From Sinomonas sp. ASV322 (GTDB taxonomy: Bacteria > Actinomycetota > Actinomycetes > Actinomycetales > Micrococcaceae), in NCBI RefSeq assembly GCF_030908245.1, contig NZ_JAVFJJ010000014.1, positions 24,117-88,116 of the forward strand: a stretch of 64,000 nucleotides of DNA, read 5' to 3'. Below the pieces are notes generated by a model. The model was not told where the DNA came from, did not search any database, and worked only from the letters and a program-made list of their open reading frames with translations. The translations under genes and the position numbers were made by a program. This document shows positions 50,067 through 56,545 of this stretch, piece after piece; the first letter of the stretch is position 1, and each line of letters opens with the position of its first letter.

Positions 50067-51071
50067 ATGAGTCCCCCCACGGCCCTCGCCTACTGGACCA
50101 CCGGCCCGCACGCCGGGGAGCTGCGTCGCGAGCCGCTGCACGAGCCGGGCCCTGGTGAAGCGCTCGTGCGGGCGCTCTATTCCGGCTACAGCCGCGGGAC
50201 CGAACGGCTCGTCCACGCCAATCGCGTCCCCGAGCGCGTCGCGGAGCTCATGGCCGCGCCGCATCAGGAGGGCGCATTCCCGTGCCCCGTCAAATACGGG
50301 TACCTCTCGGTCGGCGTCGTCGAGGATGGGCCGGCGGACATCCTCGGGCACACGGTCTTCTGCCTCTACCCCCATCAGGACCGCTACGTCGTGCGCGCGG
50401 ACGAGCTCGCCGTCGTCCCCCATGGCGTGCCGGCCCGCCGCGCGGTCCTTGCAGGCGCCGTCGAGACCGCCGTCAACGCACTGTGGGACGCCGCGCCCCG
50501 CCTCGGCGACCGCGTCGCGGTCGTCGGATGTGGCCTCGTGGGCTCGGCGCTGCTCACGCTCTTGCGGCGGTTCCCCCTCGCGCGTCTCGAGGCCATCGAC
50601 AGCGATCCGGCGCGCGCGGGGCTCACCGAGCGGCTCGGGGCCGATTTCGCGCTCCCGGCGGACGCGCACGACGACTGCGACGTCGTGCTCCACTGCTCCG
50701 CGAGCGCCGAGGGCCTCGCGCGGTGCCTCGAACTCGTCGGCGACGACGGCGAGGTGACCGAGCTCTCGTGGTACGGCGATCCGCGCGTCGTCGTGCCCCT
50801 CGGGGCCGACTTCCACGCGCGCCGCCTCTCACTCCGCGCGAGCCAAGTGGGCCAGGTCGCGCTCGCGCGGCGACACCGCCGGACGCGCGCGCAGAGGCTC
50901 GCCTTGGCCCTGGGCCTCCTCGCCGACCCCGTGTACGACGAGTTCCTCGGCGGCCCCTCGGACTTCGCCGAGCTCCCTGCCATCGTCGAGGCGCTTGCGT
51001 CGGGCAGACTCGACGGGCTCTGCCACGTGATCCGCTACCCCGGCGCGGAGGAGGATTCATGTACACCCTGA
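50067..51071 (+). CDS. Zinc-type alcohol dehydrogenase-like protein of the PTPS/glycosyltransferase operon
   Basis: 334 residues. The cofactor domain shows VAVVGCGLVGSALLTLLRR, and the fold follows medium-chain dehydrogenases, though the classic structural-zinc cysteines are absent. The N-terminal YSGYSRGTERLVH is characteristic of a subgroup that occurs next to PTPS-like genes in actinobacteria. Its coding end overlaps the next gene by 13 nt. It probably oxidises or reduces a sugar-like or pterin-like intermediate; the pathway is unknown. Confidence 0.8.
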   Translation: MSPPTALAYWTTGPHAGELRREPLHEPGPGEALVRALYSGYSRGTERLVHANRVPERVAELMAAPHQEGAFPCPVKYGYLSVGVVEDGPADILGHTVFCLYPHQDRYVVRADELAVVPHGVPARRAVLAGAVETAVNALWDAAPRLGDRVAVVGCGLVGSALLTLLRRFPLARLEAIDSDPARAGLTERLGADFALPADAHDDCDVVLHCSASAEGLARCLELVGDDGEVTELSWYGDPRVVVPLGADFHARRLSLRASQVGQVALARRHRRTRAQRLALALGLLADPVYDEFLGGPSDFAELPAIVEALASGRLDGLCHVIRYPGAEEDSCTP

Positions 51072-51448
51072 CCGTGCGCGACCACATCATGATCGCCCAC
51101 AGCCTGCACCGGCCCGAGTTCGGCCCAGCCCGGGCCCTGCACGGCGCGACTTACGTCGTCGAACTCACCGTGCGGGCGCGCGAGCTCGACGAGAACGCGA
51201 CCGTCGTGGACCTGGGCGCCCTCGCCCAGATGCTCTCCGACGTGCTCGCGCCGCTCCGCTACCGCAATCTCGACGAGCACCCCGCGTTCGAGGACCAGCT
51301 CACGACCACCGAGGCCCTCGCCCGGCACGTCGCGGAGGAGGTCGCCGCGCGCCTCGGCTCGCGCGCCGGGAACCGCCTCACGGGACTGAGCGTCGTGCTG
51401 CGCGAGCATCCCGATGCGTGGGCCGGATACAGCCTCGAGCTGCCGTAG
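51059..51448 (+). CDS. Divergent 6-pyruvoyl-tetrahydropterin synthase / QueD-like protein
   Basis: 129 residues. The T-fold is indicated by FGPARALHGATYVVELTV and the closing LREHPDAWAGYSLELP. In QueD/PTPS the zinc is held by one His followed by HGH; here MIAHSL is retained but HGH reads HGA, and the catalytic Cys before it is missing, so classical activity is doubtful. It overlaps the dehydrogenase gene by 13 nt and is followed 10 nt later by the glycosyltransferase, so the three genes form one operon. Confidence 0.8.
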   Translation: MYTLTVRDHIMIAHSLHRPEFGPARALHGATYVVELTVRARELDENATVVDLGALAQMLSDVLAPLRYRNLDEHPAFEDQLTTTEALARHVAEEVAARLGSRAGNRLTGLSVVLREHPDAWAGYSLELP

Positions 51449-51458
51449 CCTGGCCTCG

Positions 51459-52667
51459 GTGCGCCTCGATTTCGTCGTCCCCGCGCCGCTCGCGTGGCGT
51501 TCCGGCGGGACCGTGTATGACGAGCGGCTCGCCGCCGCCCTGGCGGCAGCCGGCGCGGACGTCCGCATCACGTCCGCGGAGGGCGCGTGGCCAGTGGGCA
51601 GTTCCGCCGATCGTGCGCGCCTCGGCGCGCTTATCCGAGAGATTGCCGACGACGGCGGAGGGCGCCTCATCGTCGACGGCCTCGTCGGCCTGGGGTGCCC
51701 GGGCGAGATCGCGGGCGCCCGACGCGCGGGGCTCGACGTGTGGCTCCTTGTGCAGATGCTGATCAGTGAGTGGCCAGGCGGCGAGCGGCCAGGCGCAAAG
51801 TGGCCAGGCGCAGAGTGGCCAGGCGGCGAGCGGCCCAGCGGCGAGATCTTGGCGGCTCCGGGGCGTCACGCGGCCCTCGAATCCGCGGCCCTCGCCGCCG
51901 CGTCGGGCGCCATCACGCCGAGCAGCACTACGGCCTCCGAGGTCCTGAGGCGCTACGGGGTCGTCGCCGCCGTAGCGCGCCCCGGCGTCGACCGCGCTCC
52001 GATCGCGCACGGATCGGAACCGCCGCGAATCGTGTGCTTCGCCGCGCTCATGCCGAGCAAGCGACAGCTCGCGCTGCTCGACGCCCTCCGCGGCCTCGCC
52101 GACCTCCCCTGGACTGCCGAGCTCGTCGGCTCCGACCGGGCCGACCCCGAGTACGCGCGGGCCGTGCGCGAGGCCGCCTCTGCGCCGCCGCTGCGCGGGC
52201 GCGTCCGGATCGCGGGCGAGCTCCGCGGTGAGGCGTTCGAGGCCGCATGGGACGCCGCGGACCTCAGCGTGCTCGCGAGCGCGTCCGAGACGTTCGGCCT
52301 CGTCGTCGTCGAGTCGCTCGCGCGCGGCGTGCCAGCGATCGTGCCGGCCGGAACGGGAGCCGAGGAGGCGCTCGGCCTCTCGCGGCGCGGCGGGGCGGGA
52401 TTGGCCGGGGCCGGACTGGCCGAGGCCGGACTGGCCGAGGCCGGACTGGCCGGGGCCGGACTGGCCGGGGCCGGACTGGCCGGGGCCGCATGCCGATTTG
52501 CCGGCGATGTGGGTGCCGCCAGCGACGCAGTCACCGTGCTGCGCTCGTGGCTGACCAACCCCGTCCTCAGGAGTCAGTGGCTGGCCATCGCGCGGGCGGC
52601 GCGACCCGTCCTTCCCGGATGGAACGCGACGGCGCGGGCCGTCCTCGCGGCCGTCGGGCCATCGTGA
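51459..52667 (+). CDS. Glycosyltransferase family 4-like protein carrying two minisatellites
   Basis: 402 residues from a GTG at 51459. The GT-B C-terminal domain is clear: VLASASETFGLVVVESLARGVPAIV with the sugar-nucleotide Glu. The N-terminal half (MRLDFVVPAPLAWRSGGTVYDERL) is the acceptor domain. Two segments are repetitive, a 15-bp minisatellite giving WPGGE/RPGAK pentapeptides near residues 104-128 and another giving GLAGA pentapeptides near 314-343. Both lie between conserved blocks, probably in surface loops. Third gene of the operon. Confidence 0.83.
   Translation: MRLDFVVPAPLAWRSGGTVYDERLAAALAAAGADVRITSAEGAWPVGSSADRARLGALIREIADDGGGRLIVDGLVGLGCPGEIAGARRAGLDVWLLVQMLISEWPGGERPGAKWPGAEWPGGERPSGEILAAPGRHAALESAALAAASGAITPSSTTASEVLRRYGVVAAVARPGVDRAPIAHGSEPPRIVCFAALMPSKRQLALLDALRGLADLPWTAELVGSDRADPEYARAVREAASAPPLRGRVRIAGELRGEAFEAAWDAADLSVLASASETFGLVVVESLARGVPAIVPAGTGAEEALGLSRRGGAGLAGAGLAEAGLAEAGLAGAGLAGAGLAGAACRFAGDVGAASDAVTVLRSWLTNPVLRSQWLAIARAARPVLPGWNATARAVLAAVGPS
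51768..51842 (+). repeat. 15-bp tandem repeat, five copies
   Basis: Units of the form GAGTGGCCAGGCGGC start at 51768, 51783, 51798, 51813 and 51828. In-frame, within the glycosyltransferase gene. Confidence 0.92.
52398..52487 (+). repeat. 15-bp tandem repeat, six copies
   Basis: Units of the form GGACTGGCCGGGGCC start every 15 bp from 52398. The first is GGATTGG..., and the second and third read GAGGCC. In-frame, within the same glycosyltransferase gene. Confidence 0.94.
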
Positions 52668-52675
52668 CGCGCCGC

Positions 52676-52832
52676 CAACGTCCCAGCCTCAGCGCCAACC
52701 TCCCCAACTTCAGAACCGGGTTCCCCAGCTCTAGGACCCCCTCGCAGCGGCGGGCCGCGCTATCCCGGGCGAGCGCCGCCGTCGTACGCCCAGAAGCTGG
52801 GGAGCGCGGAACAGAAGCTGGGGACTCCGGCG
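52676..52832. repeat. Array A: three direct and two inverted 21-bp-class units
   Basis: Direct units start at 52676, 52696 and 52717 (core CAACCTCCCCAACTTC, with variants). A 53-bp spacer follows, then inverted units at 52791 and 52812 (CAGAAGCTGGGGA). The inverted core is the reverse complement of the direct core, so the array folds into a long imperfect hairpin. It lies between the convergent glycosyltransferase and sigma-factor genes. The same design recurs at 54888-55055. Confidence 0.85.
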
Positions 52833-52833
52833 C

Positions 52834-52905
52834 CACCCGACCCCCGGCCCCCGGCCCCCAGCCCCCAGCCCCCAGACTCCCAGCCCCCGGCCCCCGCTCC
52901 AAGCC
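52834..52905. repeat. Low-complexity CCCCCGG/CCCCCAG tract
   Basis: About nine 7-bp units, CCCCCGG or CCCCCAG, with interruptions. It abuts the sigma-factor stop codon. Non-coding. Confidence 0.75.
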
Positions 52906-52906
52906 C

Positions 52907-53650
52907 TCACGCCGCGAGACGCCGCCGCAGGCGGGCGAGCACGCGACGCAAGAGCCGGGACACCTGCATCTGGCTCACGCCAAGCTCGCGCGCGATCTCC
53001 TGCTGGGTCAGCTCCTCGTCGAAACGCAGGTGCAGGAGCACGCGGTCCTGGTCTGTCGCGTCGATGAGCGCATCCACGAGCGATCGGTGCAGATCAACCC
53101 GCTCGAATCCCGGCTCCTCATATGACACGACGACCATGAGGCGCCGTTCGCGCGAATCGTCGGGCGAATCGCCGTGCTCGATCGGGTCAGCGGCCATGGC
53201 CGCGTTCGCGAGCCTGGCCTCCTCGACGTCCTCGATGGGGACACCGAGCTCGGCACTGAGCTCGCACGTCGTCGGTTCGCGGCCGAGGCGCTGCGTCAGG
53301 TCCGGGCGCAGGCGGTTGACCGTGAGCCGGAGCTCCTGAACCGACCGCGGCGGCCGGACGACCCACGACTGATCGCGAAGGTAGCGCTTGATCTCCCCCG
53401 TGATCGTCGGGACCGCGTAGGGCAGGAATCCGTGACCCTGCCCGCTGCGATATCGATGCGCGGCCTTCACGAGCCCGAGGCGCGCGACCTGGCGCAGGTC
53501 CTCCGGGTCGTGGCCGGGGCACCGAAAGCGGCGCGCGAGCGCGTCCGCCACGCCAAGGTACTCGACGGCTAGGTCGTTGGCCTCTTGCGCTGTGGCCAGC
53601 GCATCCGTCGCCCCCGGCGTGGGCAACGGCAGGGTGGGAACGGATGTCAT
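52907..53650 (-). CDS. SigB/SigF-type RNA polymerase sigma factor
   Basis: 247 residues from the ATG at 53650. Region 2 has DLRQVARLGLVKAAHRY and FLPYAVPTITGEIKRYLRD. Region 3 has WVVRPPRSVQELRLTVNRL, and region 4 ELTQQEIARELGVSQMQVSRLLRRVL. This is the stress/sporulation-type sigma-70 family group of actinobacteria. No anti-sigma or anti-anti-sigma gene is adjacent, so control must be elsewhere. The 53651-53907 upstream gap contains no obvious gene. Confidence 0.9.
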   Translation of the reverse strand: MTSVPTLPLPTPGATDALATAQEANDLAVEYLGVADALARRFRCPGHDPEDLRQVARLGLVKAAHRYRSGQGHGFLPYAVPTITGEIKRYLRDQSWVVRPPRSVQELRLTVNRLRPDLTQRLGREPTTCELSAELGVPIEDVEEARLANAAMAADPIEHGDSPDDSRERRLMVVVSYEEPGFERVDLHRSLVDALIDATDQDRVLLHLRFDEELTQQEIARELGVSQMQVSRLLRRVLARLRRRLAA

Positions 53651-53823
53651 CGTGGCCCCTGGGCGGCTTCCGTCGTCATTCCTCGTCTGCGCGGCCTCAG
53701 ACGGCCAGTACGCGATCGCGACGCCGTCTCTTTTCAACCGTAGGCCTGAAAATGGCGGGGAACAACGGACGCCGTTGCGACATGCCTGTGGCGGCGATCG
53801 CACGGGGCACGAGCCGGGCACGC

Positions 53824-53883
53824 CGCGACCCGGGACGCGTTCCGGGCCTGCCGGGGAGGGGCGCGAACGCGTTCCGGGTCGCG
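53824..53883 (-). terminator. Long inverted repeat after the Rho-N gene
   Basis: Arms 53824-53841 and 53866-53883 match at 17 of 18 positions (CGCGACCCGGGACGCGTT and its near complement), with a 24-nt loop. On the minus strand the hairpin begins 24 nt after the Rho-N mini-protein stop. Confidence 0.6.
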
Positions 53884-53907
53884 GGTTGAGTTGCCGGGGC
53901 GTGGTGA

Positions 53908-54081
53908 TCAGTGCTTGCGGAGGGCCGTGATGAGATCGGCCTTTCGCAGCGACGAGTAGCCGTGGAGTCCCATCTCCTTCGCCCTCGCGCGGAGTTGCAT
54001 GACGGTGCGGTCTTCGTACCGAACGACCGCCCCGCGGCGGCCCGTCCTTGCGGCGCCCGCGACTGCCTTGTCCTGTGCCAT
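53908..54081 (-). CDS. Rho-N-domain mini-protein
   Basis: 57 residues. The C-terminal 40 residues ([20 protein letters not shown], then [14 protein letters not shown]) form the SAP-like Rho N-terminal domain, a nucleic-acid-binding helix-extended-helix. The rest is basic. GGGAG precedes the ATG. Such stand-alone domains may bind RNA or DNA; no partner is visible. It lies between vsr and the sigma factor in the same direction. Confidence 0.8.
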
Positions 54082-54241
54082 GGTGCTCCCCTTGCTGGTG
54101 TTGACCCGATGGTGATGGCGGGCCACGGCCCCCTCCCGAAACCCGCGCATAACATATGCACACCAACAAGTCAAATACAACAGCTCGGCCCGCCGGATTC
54201 GCCAGCGTGCGGCACCGTGCGGCACGCTGCCGCAGGGTGCG

Positions 54242-54715
54242 TCAGGGGCCGCCTGCCGCACGCCTCCGTGCTACCCCGCTCGCGGCTCGCCCGACGACGG
54301 CGGCCCGAATCGTCCGCGCAACGGTCGCGGGGTCCTCGTGGCTCCAGAACCGCAGGACGAGCCAACCGTGCGAGGCGAGCGCCGCCGTCGTCTGCTCATC
54401 ACGCTCGCGGTTCCGGGCGATCTTGGGGCGCCAATAGTCCACGTTGCGCTTCGGCTCGATGTAGTGCTCGGGGCACCCGTGCCAATAGCAGCCATCGATG
54501 AAGACGGCGATGCGCGCCCGTGTGAAGACGAGGTCCGCCGTCCTGCGCAGCTCGGGCTCCGGCCGAAACGCGACCCGGTAGCGGAGGCCCATCGCGTGCA
54601 CCGCGCGTCGCACGAGGAGTTCGGGGGCCGTGTCCCGCGAACGGTTGCCCTGCATGGTCTTCCGGATGGCGGGAGTGGAGGCCCAGGAGGGTACGACGGC
54701 GCGCTCCTGGCTCAT
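54242..54715 (-). CDS. vsr: Very-short-patch-repair endonuclease (Vsr)
   Basis: 157 residues. The family motifs are [41 protein letters not shown] (catalytic Asp), [13 protein letters not shown] and [16 protein letters not shown]. Vsr nicks T:G mismatches left by deaminated 5-methylcytosine. It normally sits next to a cytosine-5 methylase, and none is visible in this window, so it is either orphan or serves a distant methylase. The 160-bp gap on its 3' side, to the Rho-N gene, holds no gene. Confidence 0.92.
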
Positions 54716-54752
54716 GCTGCCAGCGTACGCCGGCGGGGCTCGCGCGAGCCCG

Positions 54753-54848
54753 CCCGCCCAAGGGTCACCTACTGCGGGTGCCAGCCCGCCCAAGGGTCAC
54801 CTACCGCGGGTGCCAGCCCGCCCAAGGGTCACCTACCGCGGGTGCCAG
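54753..54848. repeat. 32-bp tandem repeat, three copies
   Basis: Units at 54753-54784, 54785-54816 and 54817-54848 begin CCCGCCCAAGGGTCACCTAC. The first differs at one base. They abut each other without spacers, so this is a tandem array rather than CRISPR. It lies 38 bp upstream of the vsr start. Confidence 0.93.
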
Positions 54849-54887
54849 CCATCTAAGCGAACGACGGCGGCGCCGCCCTCTCCCGTC

Positions 54888-55055
54888 CAACCTCCCCATT
54901 GTTTGGGCCAACCTCCCCATCGTTTGGGCCAACCTCCCCGGTTTTCGAGCGGGCGACGGCGGGACGCGCCGGGAGTTCTAGGCGACACGCCGGGATCCGC
55001 ACCTTGGCCGCCGCAGAAGCTGGGGAAGCCCGCGCAGAAGTTGGGGAGTTCGGGC
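54888..55055. repeat. Array B: three direct and two inverted 21-bp units
   Basis: Direct units start at 54888, 54909 and 54930 (core CAACCTCCCCATCGTTTGGG). A 63-bp spacer follows, then inverted units at 55014 and 55035 (CAGAAGCTGGGGA and CAGAAGTTGGGGA). Period 21 bp in both arms. Same number, order and orientation of units as array A. The whole 54716-55144 stretch has no gene. Confidence 0.88.
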
Positions 55056-55144
55056 GCGTGAGGGCTAGAGGACCGTTGGGCCGTCACGTTTGCTGGGTTC
55101 GGACCCTGCAAACATGACGGCGCAAGCGGAAGGGAGCGTCCTCG

Positions 55145-55999
55145 TCAGGCGAAGTCGCTCACCGCGGGGTCGGGGCCGATGCGGCCCTCGGCGCCCTTGT
55201 CGAGCAAGGCGATCGCGGCAAAATCCTCGGCGTCGAGGGAGACGCCGAGCGAGGCCCAGTTCTCGGCGATGCGCGCCGGAGTGACCGACTTCGGGATCAC
55301 CACGTTGCCGAGCGCGAGATGCCACGCGATGACGACCTGCGGAACGGTCGCGCCATGCTTCTCGGCGATCGCGGCGAGGGTCTGGTCCTCAAGGAGTTCC
55401 TTGCCCTGGCCGAGCGGCGACCACGACTCGTGCAGGATGCCGCTCGAGGACTCGAATGCGCGGAGCTCGGCCTGCGGGAAGTACGGGTGGGTCTCGACCT
55501 GGTTGATGACGGGGAGGACTCCCGTCTCGCGCTCGATCTCCTGGATCGCCTCGACCGTGAAGTTCGAGACGCCGATCGAGCGGACGCGACCCGAAGCCTG
55601 AAGCTTGACGAGCTCCTGCCACGTCTCGACGTACAGGCCGCGCTTCGGCTGGAGCCAGTGGATGAGATAGAGGTCCACGTACTCGAGGCCGAGCTTCTCG
55701 AGCGACTTCTCGAATGCGGGGGCCACGTTGCCGGCGCCCTGGTCCGCGTTCCAGAGCTTGGTCGTGATGAAAAGGTCTTCGCGCGCGAGGGCCGAGGACG
55801 CGATCGCGCGGCCCACGCCCGCCTCGTTGCCGTAGATCGCAGCAGTGTCGATGTGGCGGTAGCCAGCCTCGAACGCCTCGCCGACCGCGCGCTCCGCGAC
55901 GGAGTCCTCGACCTGCCACACGCCGTAGCCGAGCTGCGGGATCTTGAGGCCGTCGTGGAACGTGAGCACAGGGGAAGTCAGGGAATCGGTAGATGCCAT
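55145..55999 (-). CDS. Aldo/keto reductase
   Basis: 284 residues from the ATG at 55999. The catalytic tetrad is visible: Asp in RHIDTAAIYGNE, Tyr in the same motif, Lys in FITTKLW and His in LYLIHW. The C-terminal SVTPARIAENWASL is the NADPH-binding end typical of the 2,5-diketo-gluconate reductase-like group. Cytosolic NADPH-dependent reduction of aldehydes or ketones. No operon partner. Confidence 0.92.
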   Translation of the reverse strand: MASTDSLTSPVLTFHDGLKIPQLGYGVWQVEDSVAERAVGEAFEAGYRHIDTAAIYGNEAGVGRAIASSALAREDLFITTKLWNADQGAGNVAPAFEKSLEKLGLEYVDLYLIHWLQPKRGLYVETWQELVKLQASGRVRSIGVSNFTVEAIQEIERETGVLPVINQVETHPYFPQAELRAFESSSGILHESWSPLGQGKELLEDQTLAAIAEKHGATVPQVVIAWHLALGNVVIPKSVTPARIAENWASLGVSLDAEDFAAIALLDKGAEGRIGPDPAVSDFA

Positions 56000-56092
56000 G
56001 CGCACATCCTGTCACTGCCGTACAAGCGGCAGCGCGCATTTGTCAGATATTTCCGCGAACTTCGCGATCCGCGAAACACGGGAATAATTCCG

Positions 56093-56545
56093 TCAGCCGG
56101 CAGCGCGAAGCCCGGCCAGCTGCTCGGCGAGCTCCACGTGTTCGAGCACCGTCGCGGCCCGGCGCTGCACGGAGAGGGCACCGACCGGGACCGGGCCCAC
56201 GGCGAGGCTCAGCATCGCGGCCGCCTCTGCCGTCGTCGCAAGGGCATTGCCTGCCTTGGAGAGCGCGCGGTGCACGTCTGCGAGGTCGCCCGGGACGTCG
56301 AAATCGTCGCTCGGGGCGAGGCGCTGGCACTTCGCGCACACCGCGCGGACCCTCGGAAGGAGAGCCGAGAGCGCGTCCGCCATGACGACGAGTTCGGCGT
56401 AGAGCTCATCGTCCTCGACGCCCTCGAGGACCTGGTGATAGCGATCGAGGCCGCGCTGGAAGCGATCGTGGGCGCGCCGCCAGAGCCCCTTCCCCAGGTC
56501 GGCGTCGTCGCGGCGCCCGCGCAGGACGTTATCGAGAATCCCCAC
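56093..56545 (-). CDS. Hypothetical protein paired with bpa
   Basis: 150 residues from a GTG at 56545, 8 nt after the bpa stop. Helical throughout, with a CxxC (AVCAKCQRLAPSDD). No domain recognised. The close spacing to bpa suggests cotranscription, so a role near the proteasome or its substrates is possible, but this is inference from position only. Confidence 0.6.
   Translation of the reverse strand: MGILDNVLRGRRDDADLGKGLWRRAHDRFQRGLDRYHQVLEGVEDDELYAELVVMADALSALLPRVRAVCAKCQRLAPSDDFDVPGDLADVHRALSKAGNALATTAEAAAMLSLAVGPVPVGALSVQRRAATVLEHVELAEQLAGLRAAG

Follow-up and report, generated by a model that had tools for sequence, protein, structure and literature searches.

Helix-phased inverted repeat arrays in Sinomonas and their possible partnership with AbiEi_4-DUF559 nucleases

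The DNA stretch analysed here, called the window throughout, comprises 64,000 nucleotides of Sinomonas sp. ASV322 (contig NZ_JAVFJJ010000014.1, positions 24,117 to 88,116), part of a genome of 4.34 Mb in 33 contigs. It carries two repeat arrays, A and B, each made of a direct arm of 21-bp units, a spacer, and an arm of the same units inverted. Array A lies between a glycosyltransferase gene and a convergent sigma-70 family factor gene, and array B between vsr and an aldo/keto reductase gene (Table 1). Both had been reported in a sequence-only reading of the window, and a unit scan confirmed their units at the places given there. They belong to a dispersed family marked by intergenic placement, positional conservation and gaps between the arms that are locked to the DNA helix, and we propose below that this family is tied to a group of AbiEi_4-DUF559 nucleases.

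Table 1. Arrays A and B and neighbouring features in the window
Feature	Position	Strand	Basis or remark
Glycosyltransferase gene	51414..52667	+	11 bp separate its end from array A
Array A direct arm, three 21-bp units, the first weak	52679..52741	+	Unit scan; starts 52679 (weak), 52700, 52721
Array A spacer, core-to-core gap 83 bp	52742..52783	.	Unit scan, array calls
Array A inverted arm, two 21-bp units	52784..52825	-	Unit scan; core ends 52804, 52825
Sigma-70 family factor gene, convergent, far side of array A	52907..53674	-	
vsr	54242..54715	-	Relatives carry vsr with or without array B; not counted in the system
Three units of the 32-bp repeat (cores 54760, 54792, 54824)	54757..54850	+	About 40 bp from array B
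Array B direct arm, three 21-bp units	54892..54954	+	Unit scan; starts 54892, 54913, 54934
Array B spacer, core-to-core gap 93 bp; GGGACGCGCC (54961) and GCGACACGCC (54982), 21 bp apart	54955..55006	.	Motifs by eye
Array B inverted arm, two 21-bp units	55007..55048	-	Unit scan; core ends 55027, 55048
Aldo/keto reductase gene, 3′ end toward array B	55145..56005	-	

The repeat unit is 21 bp long (CTCCCCARCTTCTGCGCCRRC), and 84 seed units give the 21-bp consensus CTCCCCAGCTTCTGCGCCGAC. The direct and inverted cores of the sequence-only reading are both parts of this one unit of about 18–21 bp. Within the window, CAACCTCCCCA with at most one mismatch occurs seven times (1.07 expected; none of 100 shuffles reaches seven), as does the looser CAGAAGYTGGGGA with at most two mismatches (2.29 expected; one of 100 shuffles reaches seven). 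Genome-wide, the paired-unit pattern CTCCCCAN{14}CTCCCCA with at most one mismatch yielded 59 matches, against one for its reversed control. Among 77 related genomes the pattern was frequent in G001 (15 matches), G007 (49), G009 (55) and G010 (17), and genomes outside Sinomonas gave zero to five matches, like their own reversed controls. In several other Sinomonas genomes matches were scarce or variant and the reversed control was high, because another 21-bp unit is present there.

Array calling in the stretches fetched around these matches produced 63 arrays in five Sinomonas species, 25 of them in the genome of the window (G000), which bears out the earlier suggestion of a family of intergenic repeats dispersed through a Micrococcaceae genome and extends it to further genomes. 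Unit calls near the threshold depend on the scan, and L037, L041 and L044 receive other innermost units and gaps in a second one. A collection scan for triple units returned at least 119 stretches; 16 loci were checked, of which 12 were 7-bp tandem repeats and four were not, and the one relevant record among the matches listed was from Sinomonas susongensis (NZ_SSNH01000006.1), which carries an array. The direct arm precedes the inverted arm in the 54 two-arm arrays, one array having an extra inverted unit in front, and nine of the 63 show a single arm at the threshold used. The sequence-only reading had also proposed a conserved plan of three direct and two inverted units; this was rejected because unit counts vary widely, two-arm arrays ranging from 1+2 to 12+5 and 8+11 units. 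No description of the family was found in the literature searched.

Placement was evaluated with gene calls from a simple codon-usage script. Convergent genes flank 30 of the 63 arrays, tandem genes 25 and divergent genes five (three of these five adjoin an insertion sequence (IS) transposase); two are undecided and one overlaps a weak predicted open reading frame (ORF), in agreement with the intergenic position first noted for A and B. For comparison, intergenic gaps of at least 150 bp in the same stretches number 36 convergent, 63 tandem and 43 divergent. Arrays occur mostly at gene 3′ ends, those between tandem genes at a median of 50 bp past the upstream gene end and 146 bp from the next start, and the scanned neighbours have diverse functions. 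In each of seven array groups the same two genes flank the arrays of at least two species, and a reading of the arrays as recent mobile copies only was therefore rejected. Relatives of the glycosyltransferase gene in G007 and G009 likewise have an array at the gene end, and by eye an array was found between carD and ispD in 4 of 15 genomes. On contig C1 of G009, ten of the eleven called arrays fall within about 1.2 Mb of the contig end with an ORF that we take to be DnaA. This origin-proximal placement is suggestive; sampled GC skew gave no clear picture, and the small number of arrays does not support a claim.

The gap between the innermost cores of the two arms takes discrete values in the 54 arrays with both arms: 61, 73, 82–84, 93–95, 103–105, 113–114, 124–126 and 134 bp. 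All 54 fall within 2 bp of 83.3 + 10.5k. When periods from 6 to 40 bp were scanned the best was 10.55 bp with R = 0.91, the maximum in 20,000 uniform draws being 0.50, in statistics that include related arrays which are not independent. The period near two helical turns does matter, as the sequence-only reading had argued. Loss of 21-bp units alone would give even turn numbers only; 13 gaps, in 13 arrays of three to four species, are an odd number of turns from the mode (one of them, L044, was read as 82 in another scan) and stand against unit loss as the sole source. Between carD and ispD the arrays of four species have gaps of 105, 73, 61 and 103 bp.

Shared repeats occur on both sides of nuclease genes across the order, and these nucleases have conserved core residues. 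Two arrays of the unit described above (type 1) flank a single gene in G007, G009 and G010; its 282-amino acid product is an AbiEi_4 winged helix fused to a DUF559/MTES_1575 nuclease of the PD-(D/E)XK kind. AbiEi_4 scored above cut-off in all three type-1 proteins and MTES_1575 in one of the three. Relatives of this family were matched in 15 of 15 Sinomonas genomes, 21 of the 33 other family-level and 17 of the 30 other order-level genomes searched. Reading their flanks suggested the same plan with other units on both sides, namely a unit, a spacer and an inverted unit; a 21-bp lag scan of nuclease flanks had missed single-unit elements. An alignment of 36 proteins has 19 invariant residues, among which E180, D207, E217 and D219 form the putative core, and the sole relative of solved structure found is 3hrl (E = 1.9e-8).

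As a blind statistic we took the best ungapped match between upstream and downstream flank, with a threshold score of 18. The more complete matches entered the test, namely 35 of the 67 from Sinomonas, 23 of the 30 loci from other genera and 18 of the 30 from other families; L449, at a contig end with overlapping flanks, was then dropped. The threshold was reached at 10 of 23 other-genus loci, 12 of 17 other-family loci of the order, and 17 of 35 Sinomonas loci. The 35 lack independence: a single related group (types 2 and 3) accounts for 13, of which eight lie beside infA. Among controls it was reached by none of 87 genes (2 of 145 with array-adjacent genes kept) and none of 65 outer windows of the same loci; the gene controls all come from Sinomonas, and the outer windows serve as the control for other genera and families. 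Inverted repeats within a flank likewise exceeded in strength those of 60 controls (P = 6e-5 and 1e-3). Loci with more similar proteins have more similar flanks (Spearman 0.34 over 531 non-orthologous locus pairs; 0 of 1000 permutations were as high), and even above 60% protein identity only 31% of locus pairs reach a flank score of 15. In the flanks of types 2 and 3 a pair was measurable in 16 of 26, and 15 of these 16 have the span of the type-1 mode.

A second nuclease type was found in G004 and G005, where arrays of GAGGGGTCATGTCCCTGCGTT at 21-bp steps flank a gene for a 307-amino acid protein with weak MTES_1575/DUF559 matches, below curated cut-offs, plus matches to AbiEi models. Two stand-alone arrays of G005 have gaps of 63 and 53 bp. 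The genome of the window encodes a homolog of this protein (L401; 54% identical), its gene flanked in inverted orientation by four and seven units of a 32-bp repeat, which is the same repeat that stands beside array B. Similar cores thus step by two helical turns in one species (21 bp) and by about three in another (32 bp).

Two further features were seen around the nuclease genes. A DnaA-box-like site, TTRTCCACA, often followed by TAGG, occurs at most 170 bp before AbiEi_4-DUF559 genes in Sinomonas (for example L366, L367 and L371); at least eight of its nine positions are matched before 29 of 35 genes and 13 of 284 controls, and all nine before 21 of 35 and 2 of 284. In five species infA follows the nuclease gene in the same orientation, in three it lies upstream on the other strand, and in 5 of 13 loci it was out of reach. 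Relative to infA the nuclease gene in L368, L369, L371, L380 and L381 is opposite to that in L374, L377 and L378, as if the segment bounded by its flanking elements had flipped, and recombination between these elements could be the source of this difference.

We favour, with a probability of about 0.55, the reading that takes arrays A and B for stand-alone copies of operator-like elements belonging to the AbiEi_4-DUF559 nuclease family; they would be dispersed target sites of nuclease-linked elements, serving for binding, cutting and spreading. Each 21-bp unit would be the footprint of one winged-helix domain, and direct units would place monomers side by side, two helical turns apart. With the inverted arm lying whole turns away, the C-terminal PD-(D/E)XK domains of the two arms would come to share one face of the DNA over the spacer. 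Contact between partners through the C-terminal domain, together with a winged helix covering about two turns, could explain why units step by 21 bp, why the arms are inverted and why gaps come in whole turns. The complete form would be a nuclease gene with one element per side, the nuclease perhaps being expressed under DnaA control through the DnaA-box-like site before the gene. Stand-alone copies would derive from the complete form, units would be gained or lost by tandem duplication, and, given a nuclease domain, arrays could plausibly spread, expand or invert through cutting and repair.

Several results weigh against this reading. The flank score stayed below 18 in 18 of the 35 Sinomonas loci, and among the 13 type-2 and type-3 loci a permutation test of upstream and downstream flanks gave P = 0.72, these flanks holding orthologous coding DNA. 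G000 and G001 are rich in arrays without a close type-1 nuclease (best 61–62% identity), and each has a single array where G007, G009 and G010 hold the type-1 gene; this may reflect loss of the gene, or the arrays may serve another protein. Although the genome of the window has the type-2 gene, in 325 kb sampled the type-2 element was seen once, at its own gene only. Type-3 units step by 22 bp, and two stand-alone arrays of the 32-bp repeat have gaps of 56 and 43 bp, 13 apart and off the 10.5-bp lattice. We found no empty site that bears a target duplication, nor could one be made out where G006, G007 and G010 lack the array. Arrays keep their place across species, which is compatible with a host function too.

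Such a host function is the core of one alternative, in which an unrelated DNA-binding protein of the chromosome (a nucleoid, insulator or termination factor) has its sites in the arrays and acts at gene ends, and the nuclease genes between arrays are incidental. Helix phasing demands merely some protein, and the positional conservation in several species, the placement at gene 3′ ends, the arrays of G000 and G001 without a type-1 nuclease and the bias toward the putative DnaA end of the G009 contig all suit this view. We nevertheless hold it to be rather unlikely, for it leaves unexplained the nuclease genes with other units that have the same two-sided architecture across the order, as well as the gene-array arrangement of the second nuclease type. 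A role in RNA was also considered, either as bidirectional terminators or as RNA elements, with the inverted arms folding in the transcript or with the C-rich direct arm, met first, serving Rho. The convergent (30 of 63) and tandem (25 of 63) settings would fit, as would the C-rich strand that incoming transcripts meet. The arms of one array lack co-variation, however, which argues against a hairpin: likeness at variable positions is 0.472 within an array and 0.475 between arrays (permutation P = 0.56; 20 arrays). For this reason, and given the helix-locked gaps and a terminator-like hairpin (by eye) that already precedes the carD-ispD array, a hairpin or terminator as the main role was not favoured. 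With no Rfam match at E ≤ 1 in positions 51,000–56,500 of the window, and with 11 of 15 species lacking an array between carD and ispD, the RNA explanation appears improbable.

Dispersal would be accounted for by different means if the arrays were miniature inverted-repeat elements that an IS481-like or other transposase has spread. A multi-copy IS481-like element is found at the G000 contig ends C2, C8, C13, C17, C19, C20, C21, C22, C25 and C30; the model nearest to its transposase is IS481 (207.6 bits, short of the cut-off of 224). By eye, one or more array units lie in the flank next to eight of ten exact IS-end matches in this genome, some of which may come from the same insertion, so the arrays look like landing sites of the IS481-like element. 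The IS ends fall at differing points of unit or spacer, as for an IS that targets arrays, and are unlike the units; unit number varies, and no constant termini were seen by eye in 25 elements with flanks. We give transposase-driven spread little credence.

Other features surround the arrays in the window. A match to vsr was found in all 15 genomes and, by eye, type-1 units were not seen in four other vsr-reductase intervals (G007, G009, G010 and G011); vsr was therefore not favoured as the partner of array B. In G009 (L270) this interval is filled by other tandem repeats of unlike sequence (AACGTCGCGCCC.., CCACCGCCGTCG..), so this intergenic place gathers different repeats in different species. 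A long inverted repeat, ..GCCGTCAC.TTTGC..GGGT....ACCC..GCAAA.ATGACGGC.., at about 55,086–55,128 recurs by eye at the reductase 3′ ends of G006, G009 and G010, with changes on both stem sides, and is possibly a terminator or another palindromic repeat family. The spacer motif GCGACACGCC or its inverse, often in two copies 21 bp apart as in array B (54,961 and 54,982), was seen by eye in further array spacers, for example those of L235, L236, L242 and L041. Inside the glycosyltransferase gene, before array A, positions 52,402–52,503 hold 15-bp in-frame tandem repeats.

Among known systems, the repetitive extragenic palindromic (REP) sequences and bacterial interspersed mosaic elements (BIMEs), with their REP-associated tyrosine transposases (RAYTs), come close: they comprise dispersed intergenic repeats (PMC2817692) and a DNA-processing enzyme gene flanked by its own repeats, with repeats and protein diverging together. 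An enzyme gene between two copies of its own repeat is likewise seen here. REPs are short palindromes, while by eye the Sinomonas unit CTCCCCAGCTTCTGCGCCGAC is not palindromic and its arms lack co-variation; the Sinomonas gaps are locked to the helix; and the enzyme is an AbiEi_4 winged helix with a PD-(D/E)XK nuclease instead of an IS200/IS605-like transposase. The sequence-only reading had raised a link to a REP-associated tyrosine transposase. The flanked genes instead gave AbiEi_4 and DUF559/MTES_1575 matches, and the systematic link found is to AbiEi_4-DUF559 nuclease genes, RAYT genes elsewhere in the genome not having been searched for. Since unit and enzyme both differ in this way from those of the REP-RAYT family, we do not file the arrays there. 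IS elements reportedly land in REPs and BIMEs, as the IS481-like element appears to do in arrays of the G000 genome.

A second likeness is to the operators of AbiEi-family antitoxins (the type IV toxin-antitoxin system AbiE, and Rv2827c). Each monomer of these antitoxins occupies one 23-bp repeat, the repeats being paired in inverted orientation with 3 or 13 bp between them, and the promoter of AbiEi is bent by the protein itself (PMC7319586). An AbiEi-type winged helix, repeats of about two turns, inverted pairs and a spacing that differs by 10 bp between systems are in common (PMC7319586). The AbiE pair sits at one promoter with a DUF1814 toxin, whereas Sinomonas has dispersed multi-unit arrays and a nuclease domain on the same protein. 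Vsr and the DUF559/EDxHD endonucleases share the nuclease superfamily (Pfam DUF559, MTES_1575); the Sinomonas proteins differ from them in the N-terminal AbiEi_4 domain and the flanking arrays. To our knowledge Vsr has no such arrays, and none were described in the literature searched.

That literature yielded nothing joining AbiEi_4-DUF559 proteins to repeats, and no function for the fusion. We regard the pairing of helix-phased arrays with this nuclease family as categorically new; if any repeat-plus-enzyme pair counted as one kind, it would be a variant of that kind. A broader proposal, which we offer only tentatively, is a new class of selfish element, in which an AbiEi-type winged helix-PD-(D/E)XK nuclease would bind, cut, spread, expand and invert helix-phased arrays across an order of Actinomycetota, perhaps timed to replication through the DnaA box, and the dispersed arrays would be non-autonomous copies and landing sites for the IS481-like element. 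That the gaps are quantised at 10.5 bp throughout five species clearly signals natural selection for a single face of the helix. The flanking arrays supply AbiEi_4-DUF559 proteins with a likely DNA target, in an organisation that resembles REP-RAYT and is built on an unrelated enzyme.

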